NCBI GenBank assembly: GCA_016234405.1
Contig: JACRCC010000047.1
Span: 1 to 36,961, forward strand
Length of the DNA stretch: 36,961 bases
Origin: Deltaproteobacteria bacterium
Lineage (GTDB): Bacteria; Desulfobacterota; GWC2-55-46
Direction of reading: 5' to 3'
Under the pieces are notes generated by a model. That model did no database searches. It was given only the letters and a program-made list of their open reading frames with translations, and was not told where the DNA came from. The position numbers and the translations under genes are program-made. Below, in pieces: positions 25,746-34,862 of this stretch. The stretch's first letter is position 1. Each line of letters begins with the position of its first letter.

Positions 25746-26240
25746 ATGTCCGGAAATGCCGTAAAACTCGACCTTAGAATCATGTCCGTCTTTGAGAGGC
25801 ACCCGAGGATATTCGACGAGTGGGATGCCCTTCCCGCCGAGGGGGTTCTCCAGATAATAAACGACCACGACCCCAAGCCCCTGCACTATCAGTTGGAGGG
25901 GGAGTTTAAGGGCAAGTTCGCATGGGACTACGTTGAGAAAGGCCCTAAGGACTGGGTGGTAAACATCACCAAGTTGAGACCTTACGAGGCAAAGGGAGAA
26001 GAGCTGAGGGCAAAGGTCGCGGCCGCGCTCAGTAACGTGCGCCCGCATCTTCAGGCCGACGGCGGAGACGTGGAACTTGTGGAGATTGACGAGGCACGGA
26101 TGCTCGTCAAGGTGAAACTCGTTGGCGCGTGCAACGGATGCCCGTCCGCTGCCATGACCTTGAAGTCCGGCGTGGAGCACACGATTAAGAAATTCGCCCC
26201 GGAGATAAAGGGCGTTGAGGCCGTGACCGTGAACCGTTGA
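25746..26240 (+). CDS. DUF2249-NifU C-terminal domain fusion protein
   Basis: This 164-residue protein starts at ATG with GGAGG 4 bases upstream. Residues about 5-80 match DUF2249 (LDLR, RHPRIFDEWDAL, IINDHDPKPLHYQ, WDYVEKGPKDWVVNI). Residues about 85-164 are a NifU-like iron-sulfur scaffold domain (LSNVRPHLQADGGDVELVEI and the cluster-binding CNGCP motif in GACNGCPSAAMTLKSGVE). The CxxC can hold or transfer an Fe-S cluster. DUF2249 proteins are often linked with redox and nitrogen-oxide metabolism. The gene precedes an ABC exporter/cytochrome series by 141 bases. A Fe-S delivery or repair role is inference. Confidence 0.85.
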   Translation: MSGNAVKLDLRIMSVFERHPRIFDEWDALPAEGVLQIINDHDPKPLHYQLEGEFKGKFAWDYVEKGPKDWVVNITKLRPYEAKGEELRAKVAAALSNVRPHLQADGGDVELVEIDEARMLVKVKLVGACNGCPSAAMTLKSGVEHTIKKFAPEIKGVEAVTVNR

Positions 26241-26381: not shown

Positions 26382-27500
26382 GTGTTCTGGCTCGCCATAA
26401 AAACATTATTTTATGAAAAGGTGCGTCTCATGACCACGCTCATGGGCATCACCTTTTCAACGCTTCTCACCATAACCCAGATAGGGATGTACTTCGGGTT
26501 CATGGGCAACGCCACGATGATAATCAGACACACGGACGCGGACGTCTGGGTTGCGTCGAAAAATATCCAGAACTTTGATTTTGCAAACCCCATACCCGAG
26601 GACAGGATAAACAGGGTCCGCGCCCTTGACGGGGTTGAAAGCGCGGACAGGATAATCGTCTGGTGGGGTTTCTTGAAACTGCCCAGCGGCGGGCAAGAGC
26701 AGGTGCAGATAGTGGGCTTTAACCCTGATTCAGGCATAGCTGCGCCGTGGGCCATGATCGAGGGGGATGCCTACGACGTTAAGGGCGGCAGGTACATGAT
26801 AGTTGACAAAACGTCGGAGCAGAGACTCGGTAAGCTGAAGTTGGGGCAGGTTTGGGAGCTTACCGGAAAAAAATTCAAGCTCGTGGGCATATCCGAGGGC
26901 ATAAAAACCTTCACGACCGCCCCGCTCGTATTCATGTCCTACAACCAGTCAAAGGCGTTTTTCCCCGCAAACACCGCCACATACGTGGTGGCCAAGATAA
27001 AGGACAAGGGCCGGTTGGGCGAGGTGGTGGAGACCTTGCGGGCGACGATGAAGGATAACGACGTTTATACGAAGGGCGAGTTCGTCTACAAGACCGTCAT
27101 GTATTGGACGGTGCAGACCGGCATGGGCATGGGATTTTTCCTTACCGCCATACTTGGGCTTACGGTCGGCGGCGTCATAGTCGGGCAGACCATCTACGCC
27201 AACACCATGGAGCACATACAGGAATTCGGGACTCTGAAGGCCATAGGCGCGAAGAATTCCGACTTATACAAGATAATCTTCACTCAGGCAGGGATAAGCG
27301 CGGTCATAGGGTTTGCGGCCGGGTCAATCATAATCCTCCTCCTTAAAGACCTGATAGAAAAAGTTGGGGTGACTCTATATTTAAGTTTCTGGCTCTTTGT
27401 GCCGATGTTTTTTATTATACTCCTTACGTGCCTTCTTTCGGCGTATTTTTCCATTCGCAAGGTCAAGATGCTTGACCCTGTGATGGTCTTTCGGGGTTGA
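26382..27500 (+). CDS. ABC exporter permease (DevC/MacB-type, FtsX domain)
   Basis: This 372-residue protein starts at GTG. An N-terminal transmembrane helix (TLMGITFSTLLTITQIGMYFGF) is followed by a periplasmic domain (about 45-230). Then come three helices of the FtsX fold (GMGFFLTAILGLTVGGVIVG; ISAVIGFAAGSIIILL; LFVPMFFIILLTCLLSAYF), ending in VKMLDPVMVFRG as usual for this family. It forms the membrane part of a DevBCA/MacAB-like tripartite exporter with the ATPase 1 base downstream and the fusion protein after it. The substrate is unknown; DevBCA exporters move glycolipids or other lipophilic compounds. No TolC gene is adjacent. Confidence 0.88.
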   Translation: MFWLAIKTLFYEKVRLMTTLMGITFSTLLTITQIGMYFGFMGNATMIIRHTDADVWVASKNIQNFDFANPIPEDRINRVRALDGVESADRIIVWWGFLKLPSGGQEQVQIVGFNPDSGIAAPWAMIEGDAYDVKGGRYMIVDKTSEQRLGKLKLGQVWELTGKKFKLVGISEGIKTFTTAPLVFMSYNQSKAFFPANTATYVVAKIKDKGRLGEVVETLRATMKDNDVYTKGEFVYKTVMYWTVQTGMGMGFFLTAILGLTVGGVIVGQTIYANTMEHIQEFGTLKAIGAKNSDLYKIIFTQAGISAVIGFAAGSIIILLLKDLIEKVGVTLYLSFWLFVPMFFIILLTCLLSAYFSIRKVKMLDPVMVFRG

Positions 27501-27501
27501 T

Positions 27502-28176
27502 GTGGATATTGCGCTTGAGACAAAAGACGTGACGAAGATTTACAGACAGGGCGGGATAGAGGTCGTTGCCGTCGAGGGGGTCTCGCTTTCCCTTGAGGCC
27601 GGGATGGTGCTCCTTATCATGGGGCCTTCGGGGTCGGGCAAGACCACGCTTTTGTCCATGATGGGCTGCATACTCCAGCCAACAAGCGGCACGGTGCGGG
27701 TGGACAAAGGGGTTGTGAGCGGTCTCAGCATAGACCTGTTGCCGGACATACGGAAAAAATATTTCGGGTTCGTCTTTCAATCGTTCAATCTCTTTCCGTC
27801 GCTTACGGCAACGGAAAACATCGAGGTGATATTGAGGCTCAAGGGATGGAAAAAGGCGGACATGCGGGAAACGGCCGTTGGACTCCTCGACGCCGTTGGG
27901 CTAAAACAAAGGGCCGGGTTCTATCCGAGGGATTTGAGCGGCGGGGAAAAGCAGAGGGTGGCCTTTGCAAGGGCAATGGCAGGAGACCCCGCGATAATAC
28001 TCGCGGACGAGCCTACGGCAAATCTTGATTCCAAGACCGGCAACTCGGTGCTCGAACTCCTTAAAGACATGGCCGAGACCTTCGGCAAGGCCGTTGCCAT
28101 CGTGAGCCACGACCCCAGGGCCGAGGCCCTGGCCCACAGGGTCGTCTTTCTCGAAGACGGGAGGCTGAGACAATGA
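27502..28176 (+). CDS. ABC exporter ATP-binding protein (DevA/LolD/MacB-type)
   Basis: This 224-residue protein starts at GTG, 1 base after the permease stop. Walker A is GPSGSGKTTL, the Q-loop is FVFQSFNLFPSLTATENIE, the signature is LSGGEKQRVAFARAM, Walker B is AIILADEPTANLD and the H-loop is AIVSHDPR. The sequence is of the MacB/LolD class of mechanotransmitting exporters, not importers. It powers the permease encoded upstream. Its stop overlaps the start of the next gene (ATGA). Confidence 0.95.
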   Translation: MDIALETKDVTKIYRQGGIEVVAVEGVSLSLEAGMVLLIMGPSGSGKTTLLSMMGCILQPTSGTVRVDKGVVSGLSIDLLPDIRKKYFGFVFQSFNLFPSLTATENIEVILRLKGWKKADMRETAVGLLDAVGLKQRAGFYPRDLSGGEKQRVAFARAMAGDPAIILADEPTANLDSKTGNSVLELLKDMAETFGKAVAIVSHDPRAEALAHRVVFLEDGRLRQ

Positions 28177-29225
28177 AGAAGCGCGTCCCGTTCATTGCGG
28201 CGATTGTCATTGCCGCAGTATTGCTTGCCGTATTGATTTTTGCGTCGAGAAGGACCGGCGAACAAAAACCCCAAGGGGGGCAAAACCCTCCTGCGATAAG
28301 CTCTCTCAAGAGGTTTGTGGCGGCCGAGGGCAAGATAGAGACCGAGGCCGGGGGGCAGGTGGACGTAGGGAGTGAGCTTATCGGCAGGATTGCCAAAGTT
28401 TACGTTAAGGTTGGAGATGAGGTTAAGGCCGGGGATGTGCTCGCGTCCCTCGATTCAAAGGATTATCAGGCAAGGCTCAAGGGATCCGAATCCGAGCTTG
28501 CGGTTGCGCTGTCAAGGCTTGCGGAGGTTAGGGCAGGCTCAAGGACTGAAGAGATAAAAAGGGCGCAATACATCCTCGATGGCGCTGTTGCCGAGGCTGA
28601 GCTTGCGAAGAAAAATCTCCTCAGGCACAGGGACCTTCACGCAAAGGGTTTTATCTCGGAGTATCAGCTTGAAGAAAAGGTGAGCGCGTTTAAGGTGGCC
28701 AAGGCGCGGGTAAAGGAGCGCAGGCAAGAATTGACCCTCCTTGAAAAAGGGCCTAAGGCCGAGACCCTCGTCTTTTACGAAAAAAGCGTCGAGGCCGCAA
28801 AGGCCGCGGCAACGTTTAACGGAAGCCTTCTTGAAAAATCCGTCATAAGGTCTCCCATATCAGGCCGTGTGATAAGAAAGCTCATGGAGGAGGGGGAGAC
28901 CGTAATACCGGAGACCCCGATGCTGACGGTGGCGGACGTAACCCGCGTCAGGGTAAACGCCGAGGTGGACGAGACGGACATAGGCCGAATCGCGTTGGGG
29001 GATGAGGCGGATATAACGTCGGATGCCTATCCGGGGCAGGTCTATAAGGGCGTCATCACGGAGATAAACGATTACGTGGGGGAGAGGAAGGTCAAGCCCA
29101 ACAACACGGCAAAGAATATGGACATGAAGGTCATACAGGTAAAACTCGCCTTAAAGGAGCGCACGCCCCTTAAGCTCGGCATGACCGTTGACGTGAGGAT
29201 AACGCCGGGCAAGAAGGGGCGATGA
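28173..29225 (+). CDS. HlyD/DevB-type membrane fusion protein
   Basis: This 350-residue protein starts at ATG overlapping the ATPase stop by 4 bases. It has an N-terminal anchor (FIAAIVIAAVLLAVLIFAS, about 6-25), a lipoyl-like half (VDVGSELIGRIAKVYVKVGDEVKAGDVLASLDS), a long coiled-coil hairpin (about 100-210, rich in Ala/Lys/Glu), the second lipoyl half (SPISGRVIRKLMEEGETV) and a beta-barrel domain (VNAEVDETDIGRIALGDEAD; GMTVDVRITPG). It links the inner-membrane exporter to an outer-membrane channel. The linker around 28268-28290 carries a G-run/C-run stretch. Confidence 0.92.
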   Translation: MKKRVPFIAAIVIAAVLLAVLIFASRRTGEQKPQGGQNPPAISSLKRFVAAEGKIETEAGGQVDVGSELIGRIAKVYVKVGDEVKAGDVLASLDSKDYQARLKGSESELAVALSRLAEVRAGSRTEEIKRAQYILDGAVAEAELAKKNLLRHRDLHAKGFISEYQLEEKVSAFKVAKARVKERRQELTLLEKGPKAETLVFYEKSVEAAKAAATFNGSLLEKSVIRSPISGRVIRKLMEEGETVIPETPMLTVADVTRVRVNAEVDETDIGRIALGDEADITSDAYPGQVYKGVITEINDYVGERKVKPNNTAKNMDMKVIQVKLALKERTPLKLGMTVDVRITPGKKGR

Positions 29226-29247: not shown

Positions 29248-30402
29248 ATGAAGGTTAAGGTTTGGGACTTGCCGACGAGACTCGTTCATTGGCTGCTTGT
29301 CGCGGTTTTTGCGCTTGCCTTTTTAGCGTCAAGGGACGAGTGGCTGCTTGAATACCACGCCGCGGCCGGTTACGCGGCGCTTGTGCTCGTCCTATTCAGG
29401 GTCTTCTGGGGGTTCGCGGGCGCCCGGTATGCGCGATTTTCGGATTTTGTAAGGGGTTTTAAAGAGGTTGGCGAATTTCTCCGCGGCGTTGTCAGGTTTC
29501 ATCCCAAGAGATACCTCGGTCACAACCCGGCGGTCGGCTGGATAATCCTCTTTATCCTCGCGTCCGCGGCCGCGATAGTCGTAACCGGCGTTATAACTTA
29601 CGGCGGAGAGGAAAATAGAGGCGTATGGGCGGGCGTCTTTACGTTAGAGGCCGCGGTCTACGCAAGGGCCGCGCATGTCTTTCTCTCATACCTGCTCGTC
29701 TTCGTGATAGTGCTGCACATTTGCGCGGCCTTGTTCCATGATTTTATCTTGAAGGAAAACATCATACTTGCGATGTTCACCGGAAAGAAAGAGGACGCGG
29801 AGTCGTGGGGCGAGCGCGTTGCACACCTTAAACCGGAAGAGGAACCCACGAGGACGGGCCTTATCGTCTGGATAATTATTTCCATCCTTGGCGGCCTGGG
29901 GCTTGTCTTTATGCGGCCTGAAGGCAGGAGCGATCCGGCGCGGATTGAGCCGGTCAAGATAATCGCCTCATCCGGAATGGCCGTGGAACTGAAAATAAAC
30001 AGGGTCTGGTTTGAGGAGTGCGCGCGGTCGTGCCACGCCGGGTTTCACCCTACGCTCCTGCCCGAGGCGTCGTGGAAAAAGGTCATGGCCGGCCTTGAAG
30101 ACCATTTTGGGGAAAACGTTTCCCTTGACGCGAAGACCAACGAAGAGATAAGTTATTACCTCGTTTCCGCATCCGCCGAGCGTTCTACGTCCGAGGCCTC
30201 AAGAAAAATCCTTTATTCATTGAAGGGCGCTCCTCCGAGCCTCCGTATAACCCAAGCGCCGTATTGGAAGGATAAACACGCAAGGATACCCCCGGACGTA
30301 TACGCGAGAAAATCCGTCATGAGCAAGGGTAACTGCGTTGCTTGCCACCCCGGGGCCGAGAAGGGGTCTTTCGAGGACAGGGACATCGGCATCCCGGATT
30401 AG
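29248..30402 (+). CDS. Cytochrome b561 fused to a diheme cytochrome c (DHC)
   Basis: This 384-residue protein has residues 1 to about 190 as a di-heme cytochrome b561 domain with four helices and candidate heme histidines in LPTRLVHWLL, LEYHAAAGYAAL, AHVFLSYLL and VLHICAALFHDF. A fifth helix (TGLIVWIIISILGGLGLVFM, about 208-230) leads to a periplasmic DHC domain: a first heme site reading CARSCH (C258, C262, H263), then HPTLLPEASWKKVM, DHFGENVSLD and APYWKDKHARIP, and a canonical CVACH site (C363, C366, H367). The first site has three residues between the cysteines instead of two. The paralogue at 30957 has a normal CSLCH there. Probably quinol-linked electron transfer to periplasmic partners such as the adjacent SHP. 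Confidence 0.9.
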   Translation: MKVKVWDLPTRLVHWLLVAVFALAFLASRDEWLLEYHAAAGYAALVLVLFRVFWGFAGARYARFSDFVRGFKEVGEFLRGVVRFHPKRYLGHNPAVGWIILFILASAAAIVVTGVITYGGEENRGVWAGVFTLEAAVYARAAHVFLSYLLVFVIVLHICAALFHDFILKENIILAMFTGKKEDAESWGERVAHLKPEEEPTRTGLIVWIIISILGGLGLVFMRPEGRSDPARIEPVKIIASSGMAVELKINRVWFEECARSCHAGFHPTLLPEASWKKVMAGLEDHFGENVSLDAKTNEEISYYLVSASAERSTSEASRKILYSLKGAPPSLRITQAPYWKDKHARIPPDVYARKSVMSKGNCVACHPGAEKGSFEDRDIGIPD

Positions 30403-30462
30403 GTTTTTTGTTGCCGCGTATTTCTAATGAAGGTTTAATGATTAAGGGGATAGCATATTGCT

Positions 30463-30927
30463 ATGAGGGAAAAACCGTCTTTATATTTGCTCAGTGTAAA
30501 CTCCGCGAAGAATCTGCTTCTTCTCGTGTTTTCAGCCGTTCTTTTTTCAGGAGGCATTGCGTTTGCCGCCGCCCCGGAGACGCAGGCCATATTGAACGCC
30601 TTCATGGCCGAGTCCCGAAAGGCCGAGCCGAACCTCAAGACATTCAGCGCGGAAGAGGGCAAGATGTTTTTTAACTCCAAAAGGACGCATACCGCAAAAA
30701 AAGAGGAGCGTTCATGCACCACCTGCCACACGGACAATCCTGCCCGGCAGGGAAAAACGCCCGTCGGAAAAATCATAGAGCCTATGGCCGCATCGGTAAA
30801 CAAAGAACGCTTTATGGATAACAAAAAGGTCGAAAAGTGGTTTAAGAGGAATTGCGTTTGGGTGCTTGAGAGGGAATGCACGGCAAAGGAAAAAGGCAAC
30901 TATATAACCTTCATGCTTTCACGGTAA
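30463..30927 (+). CDS. SHP-type monoheme cytochrome c (sphaeroides heme protein, DUF1924)
   Basis: This 154-residue protein has a signal peptide (about 13-36, ending AFA). The mature part matches SHP: GKMFFNSKRTH, one heme site CTTCH (C85, C88, H89), GKTPVGKIIEPMA, ASVNKERFMDNKKVEKWF, then RNCVWVLEREC. In Rhodobacter sphaeroides SHP the distal heme ligand is an Asn next to a Cys pair; here N130, C131 and C139 correspond. SHP binds oxygen and nitric oxide, releases Asn on reduction, and takes electrons from DHC. Its neighbours are a b561-DHC fusion and a free DHC, the known functional partners. Strong assignment. Confidence 0.9.
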   Translation: MREKPSLYLLSVNSAKNLLLLVFSAVLFSGGIAFAAAPETQAILNAFMAESRKAEPNLKTFSAEEGKMFFNSKRTHTAKKEERSCTTCHTDNPARQGKTPVGKIIEPMAASVNKERFMDNKKVEKWFKRNCVWVLERECTAKEKGNYITFMLSR

Positions 30928-30956
30928 AAAATCTTTTTTGAATGGAGAGGGTTTCG

Positions 30957-31463
30957 ATGGGAATAAGATATGTTTTTTTTGCGTTTTTGATTGCCGGTGG
31001 ATTTGCGGCTGCGGCCGGGCCGGCCATTGCCGGTGACGGCGAAAAGCTGTTTCCGGTCGTAGACAATCAGGTCTACGCGCAGGAGTGCTCGTTATGCCAT
31101 TATCTGTATCAGCCGGGTCTGCTGCCCGAGCGTTCGTGGGAAAAACTCATGAAAGAATCAAACGACCACTTCGGAGAGAACCTCGGCCTCGACGAAAAGA
31201 CCGCGTCCGAGATACTCTCATATCTCAAGGCAAACTGCGCTGAAAAGACTCGTAACAAGCGGGCGAAAAGGATTCTATCCTCGGTCGGCGGCGCCGTGCC
31301 TTTGCGCGTCACGGAAACCCCCTACATGAAGGGAGAGCACCGGAGGATAAAGGCCGAGGTCTTCAAACGCCCCTCTATTCAGAGTTTTTCAAACTGCGCG
31401 GCCTGCCACAAAACAGCGGCCCAAGGGGATTTTGATGAGGACAACGTTTCAATCCCAAAGTAG
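30957..31463 (+). CDS. Free-standing diheme cytochrome c (DHC)
   Basis: The start is ATG 30957, with GAGAGGG 5 bases upstream; the in-frame ATG at 30942 has no site of its own. The 168-residue protein has a signal peptide (about 1-25, ending AIA) and two canonical heme sites: CSLCH (C44, C47, H48) and CAACH (C147, C150, H151). Between them are the DHC family segments PGLLPERSWEKLM, DHFGENLGLD and a KRILSSVG helix. It is homologous to the C-terminal domain of the 29248 protein. It would act as periplasmic electron donor to SHP. Confidence 0.9.
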   Translation: MGIRYVFFAFLIAGGFAAAAGPAIAGDGEKLFPVVDNQVYAQECSLCHYLYQPGLLPERSWEKLMKESNDHFGENLGLDEKTASEILSYLKANCAEKTRNKRAKRILSSVGGAVPLRVTETPYMKGEHRRIKAEVFKRPSIQSFSNCAACHKTAAQGDFDEDNVSIPK

Positions 31464-32826: not shown

Positions 32827-34080
32827 ATGGACATCCCCGCAGGCAACAAAAAATTATCCGTAGTCCTTCCGTCCGGCAAGGTTGTAAGGCAGAAGTCTTT
32901 TAAAACCCTGCCGGACAGGGAAAAGCTCCTCGTCGCGTACAAGCACCTCGAGGGGCTTCGTCAATTGAACGGCGGATACCTCGCCTCAGACTACATCGGG
33001 GACAAAGGCGGGGACAAGTATAACGTCTTCTGGCTGCGCGACATCATGTACGCCACCTACGCCAACGAGTACGTGGGCGCGTACGACAGGATGATAGAGA
33101 GCTACCGCCTCATCATACGCATCTTCGAGAAGTACAGGCACAAGATAACGAGCGGCGCGAGAAAGCGCCATTATTTAGGGAGCTGCGCGGACGAGGCCAT
33201 ACACGCGAGGGTGCATCCGGTTACGCTTGAGGAGATAACCAAGGAGTGGGGACACCACCAGCTCGACATCTTCGGACTTTTCCTCTATAAGACCGGAGAC
33301 CTCATGAAAAAGGGGCACAACGTCATTGGCACGGGCCAGGCCGAGACCTTCATACTCCTCCGGGACATCGTTCTATATCTCACGACCGTGCGCTGGCACA
33401 CTGACCCGGACTTTGGCGTATGGGAGGAGGGGCCCGAGGTGCACGCCTCGAGCGTCGGCGCCGTGCTCGCGGGCCTCACCATGTGGCACGACGACGGCCA
33501 CTACCACCACAAGTACAAGTCCCACAACCCGCTCTACGGGCTTCTCCCCATACCGCAGGAGTTCATCGAGATAGGCAGGGCGTCGCTCGACAGGACGCTG
33601 CCGTCGGAGTCGGCTTCGCGCCCCTACGACCTCGTGCAGCTGAGCCTCATCTGGCCGTACGCCATCGTGAGCGAGGCGCAGGCCCAGCAGATACTCGTGA
33701 ACGTAGAAACCCATCTCGTGCGCGAAAAGGGTCTTGTGAGATACCCCGGAGACCTGTATTACAACGCGGATGGCGGTAATCCAGTGGGCAACGAGGCACA
33801 GTGGCCGCTCGGATTCGCGTGGCTCTCGATAGTCTACTCAAAGCTCGCCATGAAGTCCCTGAGGATGGGTTCGATATTCCCGGTGCCAAGCGAGTTCATC
33901 GAAAAGGCCCAAGCATATCTCAAAAGACTCGAGGACATGATGACCGAGGACGGGCGCGTGCCTGAGCTTTATACCAACGGGCAGCCCAACTGGAGCATAC
34001 CTCTTGCATGGGCGCAGAGTTTTTACGTGGTCGCGCACCAGAGCCTGAATCGGGTCTACGAGAGGATGGGCAGCAGATAA
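32827..34080 (+). CDS. GH15 glucoamylase / phosphorylase-kinase-alpha-like protein
   Basis: I start at ATG 32827, since the upstream open frame passes through a dispersed repeat; 32785 is an alternative. The 417-residue protein is an (alpha/alpha)6-barrel type: FWLRDIMYATYANEY, KEWGHHQLDIFGLFLY, FGVWEEGPEVHASSVGAVLA, RPYDLVQLSLIWPY, GNEAQWPLGFAWLSI and GRVPELYTNG with PNWSIPLAWAQSFYVVA. The acidic residues of WEEGPE and VPELY sit where GH15 enzymes have theirs. The segment is closest in feel to the PHK-alpha subgroup of GH15. It may hydrolyse or bind alpha-glucans. No signal peptide is visible, so it is probably cytosolic. Confidence 0.8.
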   Translation: MDIPAGNKKLSVVLPSGKVVRQKSFKTLPDREKLLVAYKHLEGLRQLNGGYLASDYIGDKGGDKYNVFWLRDIMYATYANEYVGAYDRMIESYRLIIRIFEKYRHKITSGARKRHYLGSCADEAIHARVHPVTLEEITKEWGHHQLDIFGLFLYKTGDLMKKGHNVIGTGQAETFILLRDIVLYLTTVRWHTDPDFGVWEEGPEVHASSVGAVLAGLTMWHDDGHYHHKYKSHNPLYGLLPIPQEFIEIGRASLDRTLPSESASRPYDLVQLSLIWPYAIVSEAQAQQILVNVETHLVREKGLVRYPGDLYYNADGGNPVGNEAQWPLGFAWLSIVYSKLAMKSLRMGSIFPVPSEFIEKAQAYLKRLEDMMTEDGRVPELYTNGQPNWSIPLAWAQSFYVVAHQSLNRVYERMGSR

Positions 34081-34139
34081 GGGCATATCGCCCAACATCC
34101 CAGAGCCGTTCTCCCTCCAGCTTTTTCGACCGCGCCCCC

Positions 34140-34203
34140 GGCGCCGCTTTCCGATGCCGGAGTTTATCAATCATTACAGGCCCATGTGATGGAAAGCGGC
34201 GCC
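34140..34203 (+). promoter_or_regulatory. Perfect 13-bp inverted repeat in the CDF gene leader
   Basis: GGCGCCGCTTTCC (34140-34152) and GGAAAGCGGCGCC (34191-34203) are exact complements around a 38-base loop. The structure ends 12 bases before the CDF start codon. As RNA it would be a stable stem right before the ribosome-binding region; no known metal riboswitch consensus is recognisable. Confidence 0.5.
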
Positions 34204-34214
34204 GTCTTAAGGAC

Positions 34215-34862
34215 ATGAAAAGACGCCATAAAATGAAGCCCGCGGCCTTCAGGGCCACGCTTATAAACATCTTCGGCAACACCGCTCTCTTTGTCCTCAA
34301 ACTCGTCGCAGGACTCATGTCCGGGTCCATCGCCATCATATCGGAGGCCTTGAATTCTCTAAGCGACATTGCCGCGTCCGTCGGCACTTTCGTGTGCGTT
34401 AGGATTTCGGACAAGGAGGCTGACGCCGGGCATCCCTTCGGACACTCCCGCGCCGAACCCATCGCCGGGCTTATCATCGCCGTGCTCGCGGGCATCTTGG
34501 GCTTCGAGGTCATAAGGACTTCCGTGATACGGTTTTTTCGGCATGAGGAGATTGAGATAACAGCGTTTACTCTCCTCGTGCCGTTTATTACTATGGTCAC
34601 GAAGGGCGCGATGGCGCTGCACTTCAGCGCAGTCGGCAAAAAGGCGGGAAGCCCGGCCTTGAAGGCCACTGCCGTTGATTCCTTCATGGACGTCTTCGTG
34701 GCAATGGCCGCGCTCATCGGCATAGCGGGCGCGAAGATCGGGTTTCCGTTCTTTGACCCGGCGGCCGGTCTTGCGATAAGTTTTTGGATAATCTACGCGG
34801 GCTACAGGATAGGCATGGAAAATATCGCGTATCTCATGGGGCAAGCGCCTCCGCCTGAATGA
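34215..34862 (+). CDS. Cation diffusion facilitator, membrane domain (split gene, part 1)
   Basis: This 215-residue product starts at ATG 34215 (frame open upstream; start inferred from family N-terminus). It has the six-helix membrane domain of CDF exporters: SGSIAIISEALNSLSDIAAS in TM2, the GHPFGHSRAEPIAGL loop and ALKATAVDSFMDVFVAMAAL in TM5, giving NxxxD and DxxxD at the transport site. That pattern is the one I associate with bacterial manganese exporters such as MntE. It ends LMGQAPPPE with a TGA overlapping the ATG of the next ORF, which encodes the cytosolic domain normally fused to it. An Mn2+/Fe2+ efflux role is inference. Confidence 0.88.
   Translation: MKRRHKMKPAAFRATLINIFGNTALFVLKLVAGLMSGSIAIISEALNSLSDIAASVGTFVCVRISDKEADAGHPFGHSRAEPIAGLIIAVLAGILGFEVIRTSVIRFFRHEEIEITAFTLLVPFITMVTKGAMALHFSAVGKKAGSPALKATAVDSFMDVFVAMAALIGIAGAKIGFPFFDPAAGLAISFWIIYAGYRIGMENIAYLMGQAPPPE

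Follow-up and report, generated by a model that had tools for sequence, protein, structure and literature searches.

A CytB/mDHC–SHP–sDHC operon of the Rhodobacter type in a Deltaproteobacteria bacterium, with a CX3CH site in its fused diheme cytochrome c

The window analysed here is a stretch of 36,961 nucleotides from a Deltaproteobacteria bacterium (GenBank assembly GCA_016234405.1, contig JACRCC010000047.1, forward strand). Three consecutive genes on its plus strand encode a cytochrome b561 fused to a diheme cytochrome c (b561-DHC; 29248..30402), the SHP protein with its DUF1924 domain (30463..30927) and a free, soluble diheme cytochrome c (sDHC; 30942..31463). These positions and identities, proposed in an earlier note from the letters of the sequence, are borne out by the open reading frames, Pfam profiles, matches to solved structures and the heme ligands.

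The fusion protein is 384 residues long. Its N-terminal part matches the Ni_hydr_CYTB profile (PF01292; residues 5–179, E 5.6e-24) while the C-terminal part, the mDHC, matches the DHC profile (PF09626; residues 254–375, E 3.1e-34) and the solved DHC structure 2fw5 (E 1e-20). The b561 domain has four transmembrane helices and four His ligands for two b hemes (H14, H37, H143 and H157), all invariant in an alignment of 53 fusions. The c-heme residues of the fused DHC (C258, C262, H263, H286, H344, C363, C366 and H367) are likewise invariant among the 53 sequences, and the alignment provides bis-His ligation for its two c-heme sites. Site 2 is CVACH (C363–H367; 30334..30348, plus strand). Site 1 is CARSCH (C258–H263; 30019..30036, plus strand), whose spacing is CX3CH and not CX2CH, a correction to the gene description given earlier. 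In the AlphaFold2 model of the fusion (mean pLDDT 87, pTM 0.83) helices span residues 8–27, 31–57, 94–122, 133–167 and 202–221. The last of these is a predicted fifth transmembrane helix located between the b561 domain and the DHC, and hydropathy and the model both give five membrane helices ahead of the DHC. The distribution of Lys and Arg, with 8 in segment 58–98 and 3 in residues 1–14, fits an N terminus on the inside. An odd number of helices combined with an inside N terminus would place the fused DHC in the periplasm; hydropathy, charge and predicted structure together favour this side.

SHP carries a signal peptide and a single heme site, CTTCH (C85–H89). A profile search returned PF09086 (DUF1924) with an E-value of 6.4e-37 and 126.3 bits against a curated cut-off of 22.5, so the SHP features that the earlier note expected from such a search are present. 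The best PDB match is cytochrome c'' (1e8e, E 8e-20), followed by SHP itself (1dw0, E 3e-18), and the AlphaFold2 model has a pLDDT above 90 over nearly the whole mature chain. Alignment with 1dw0 confirms the Asn ligand N130, at the distal position, with its flanking C131 and C139, and also identifies W126; the four residues are conserved across the SHPs aligned. In the alignments N130 falls on the Asn of 1dw0 and on the His of cytochrome c''. The cytochrome c'' of Methylophilus methylotrophus is a member of the SHP family by sequence whose sixth ligand is His, whereas that of the window SHP is Asn.

The free DHC matches PF09626 (E 2e-38) and PDB 2fw5 (E 5e-25) and has heme sites CSLCH and CAACH. 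Its more likely start is the ATG at 30957, preceded by a GGAGAGGG ribosome site, which revises the start assigned previously. A tree of 118 DHC domains splits the fused from the free forms of all lineages by one branch (SH-aLRT 84, not strong support, with few alignment columns). Because the two forms lie on opposite sides of this branch, the duplication of DHC is probably an old paralogy, and the same split speaks against a local event. The fused form may have a single origin; several origins were thought likely in a previous study (PMC2909971).

The arrangement is not new. The R. sphaeroides operon described by Meyer, Kyndt and Cusanovich in 2010 (PMC2909971) consists of a CytB/mDHC chimera followed by SHP and then by soluble DHC, and the path quinol to CytB to mDHC and sDHC to SHP was already proposed there. 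According to the earlier note this organism encodes SHP, DHC and cytochrome b in separate genes, which the chimera contradicts, and its claim of novelty fails because gene order, chimera and path are identical in the published system. The locus of the window is an ordinary copy of this operon type, carried by an uncultured bacterium. The two operons share the three proteins, the fusion, the gene order, the Asn ligand with its neighbouring Trp and two flanking Cys, and the lack of adjoining regulators. They differ in lineage, in SHP sequence (43% identity) and in site 1 of the fused DHC, which is CX3CH in the window and CX2CH in the alphaproteobacterial fusions compared, Rhodobacteraceae included. 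CytB/mDHC chimeras accompanied by SHP were also reported in Rhodoferax ferrireducens, Campylobacter fetus, Arcobacter butzleri and Wolinella succinogenes, but in these four species SHP lies ahead of CytB, and the three epsilon-class SHPs of the set lack the Cys pair found in the window SHP (PMC2909971).

The distribution of the operon was surveyed in two samples. Among 59 genomes, composed of the window's own and 58 relatives, SHP is present in 22 and DHC in 27. The order b561-DHC, SHP, DHC is found in all 22 further SHP loci, which belong to 21 other genomes (in one of them a contig end truncates the free DHC). Scanning species genomes gave a second sample, of 80 named SHP loci. The fusion is present in 53 of them and absent in 26, the remaining one (L075) being cut by a contig end; the gene order of the window is found in 46/80. 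Carriers of the fusion are alphaproteobacteria, one betaproteobacterium, "Deltaproteobacteria" metagenome-assembled genomes (many from groundwater) and Nitrospinota. The b561-DHC fusion is the commonest architecture among the surveyed SHP loci. Far from setting this locus apart from known systems, as had been suggested, it extends over several lineages and takes in, besides the proteobacterial species of the 2010 list, the "Deltaproteobacteria" metagenome-assembled genomes and Nitrospinota.

The CX3CH spacing is more restricted. It is found at site 1 of 15 of the 53 fusions, always ending in SCH, and all 15 belong to the window's clade. This clade has 23 fusions (support 100), of which 15 are CX3CH and 8 CX2CH; 14 of the 22 other members therefore share the spacing of the window. 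Outside the clade CX2CH is found in 30/30 fusions and CX3CH in none. The truncated fusion of L075 is also CX3CH, while the free DHCs of the survey are all CX2CH. The pattern, C[AG]xSCH at the heme site that comes first behind the membrane helices, was recorded in the window and in 15 further loci, the truncated one included. A sequencing error is ruled out since many genomes have the motif. In a tree built with the motif columns left out, six changes are needed and well-supported branches force two, from which it appears that CX3CH is a trait gained or lost more than once inside one clade. Attachment of heme to CX3CH by the Ccm system of E. coli has been reported. CX3CH by itself has precedents, since the quinol-oxidising ImcH and two CymA homologues also have an atypical CX3CH beside a membrane domain, a likeness to the window fusion that concerns the motif alone (PMC6295460). 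Its recurrence at the first post-membrane heme offers the fields of cytochrome c maturation and quinol oxidation a small, testable variation.

The genes upstream of the operon encode a DUF2249-NifU protein (25746..26240, plus strand) and an ABC exporter composed of a DevC-like permease, a DevA-like ATPase and a membrane fusion protein (26382..29225, plus strand). The short gaps reported before the operon are real. The exporter ends 22 bases upstream of the b561-DHC gene on the same strand, and the two units are possibly co-transcribed; scans for promoters and terminators in this region gave no site deciding whether they share a transcript. These distances are what speaks for a functional tie of the operon to the exporter and the DUF2249-NifU protein, at which the earlier note had hinted. 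Against it, the DUF2249-NifU, permease and membrane fusion protein genes are found in none of the 23 clade loci (in fetched stretches of up to ~5 kb on either side of SHP), where nothing matched but distant ATPases belonging to a metal ABC transporter encoded on the opposite strand. The linkage is not conserved, and a functional tie is very improbable.

In the relatives, ABC-3/ZnuC/Fur genes are more often found upstream of the SHP operon, and genes for MBL-fold, thioredoxin-like, DUF3570 and ApbE proteins downstream. Metal-related genes of this kind were recorded for ten loci of relatives: the ABC-3/ZnuC metal transporter genes, in some cases with a Fur-family gene, lie on the other strand, and Nramp is found in two loci. 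DUF3570 recurs near the operon in eight loci, mostly together with the thioredoxin-like, ApbE and MBL-fold genes, a block that is missing beside the operon of the window. The presence of ZnuABC, Fur and Nramp beside SHP in relatives makes metal homeostasis a candidate link; the window has instead a cation efflux gene at 34008-34862. CzcD was found near SHP in other species (PMC2909971).

Gene content, heme ligands and gene order are obtained here from the sequence, while we infer the order of electron transfer from the literature, in which reduction of SHP by DHC in R. sphaeroides is the only step of the path demonstrated (PMC2909971). The locus is very probably (a probability of roughly 0.85) a CytB/mDHC–SHP–sDHC operon of Rhodobacter type, with a putative path from quinol through b561, mDHC and sDHC to SHP that would end at O2 or NO. 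Quinol would deliver electrons to the two b hemes of b561, an oxidation assumed from family membership, and the hemes would send them outward to the tethered DHC on its predicted periplasmic side. The tethered DHC would then reduce the soluble DHC and the latter SHP. Reduction of SHP may free the sixth coordination site occupied by Asn130 for binding of O2 or NO. The best proposal at present for the reaction of SHP is NO dioxygenation, an activity for which a report is cited in PMC2909971, or some other reaction of oxygenase type. The path drawn in the earlier note is in this respect well supported, although it repeats the published one.

The direction of this path deserves consideration, as b561-type cytochromes can in principle work both ways and many further c-type cytochromes are encoded in the genome. 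SHP or the DHCs might instead draw electrons from donors in the periplasm and pass them via b561 to quinone, or swap electrons with other periplasmic cytochromes. Such a reversed operon or electron sink is quite improbable: the Asn ligand of an open site gives SHP a ligand-binding chemistry unlike that of a simple carrier, and it is DHC that reduces SHP in the published experiments (PMC2909971). Alternatively, SHP could sense or scavenge NO or O2 and be merely reset through reduction by DHC, without being a reductase or oxygenase terminus. Many SHP operons do contain genes for a sensor kinase and a response regulator (PMC2909971), and four sensor kinases and four response regulators are among the neighbours of the other SHP loci analysed here, but no regulator was detected among the ten neighbouring genes of the window tested with profiles. 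A role of this kind is unlikely.

The genome of the window is a draft with an estimated completeness of 97.8%. No heme-copper oxidase subunit I above cut-off was found in it, an absence that at this completeness is not proof; most of the relatives yielded several strong matches to COX1. The best COX1-like match is a 138-residue frame with 28 bits, below cut-off. The genome encodes three CydA-like proteins (627-741 residues), beside c-type cytochromes. It is highly improbable that the operon, with its CX3CH heme at the handover from membrane to periplasm, constitutes in a genome devoid of heme-copper oxidase a real respiratory or detoxifying route from quinol to O2 (or NO) as opposed to a side pathway. 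Cytochrome cd1 nitrite reductase, looked for as a possible supplier of NO, was not found in the genome. These observations on oxidases in this genome concern C88:20341-20727 (locus L136), C10 (L138) and C102 (L139). Positions 1492-1908 of L136 encode a 138-residue membrane protein resembling part of CcoN over its residues 38-90; its neighbours are a NifU-like frame and a frame of 72 residues. Contig C10 encodes two multicopper oxidase-like proteins.
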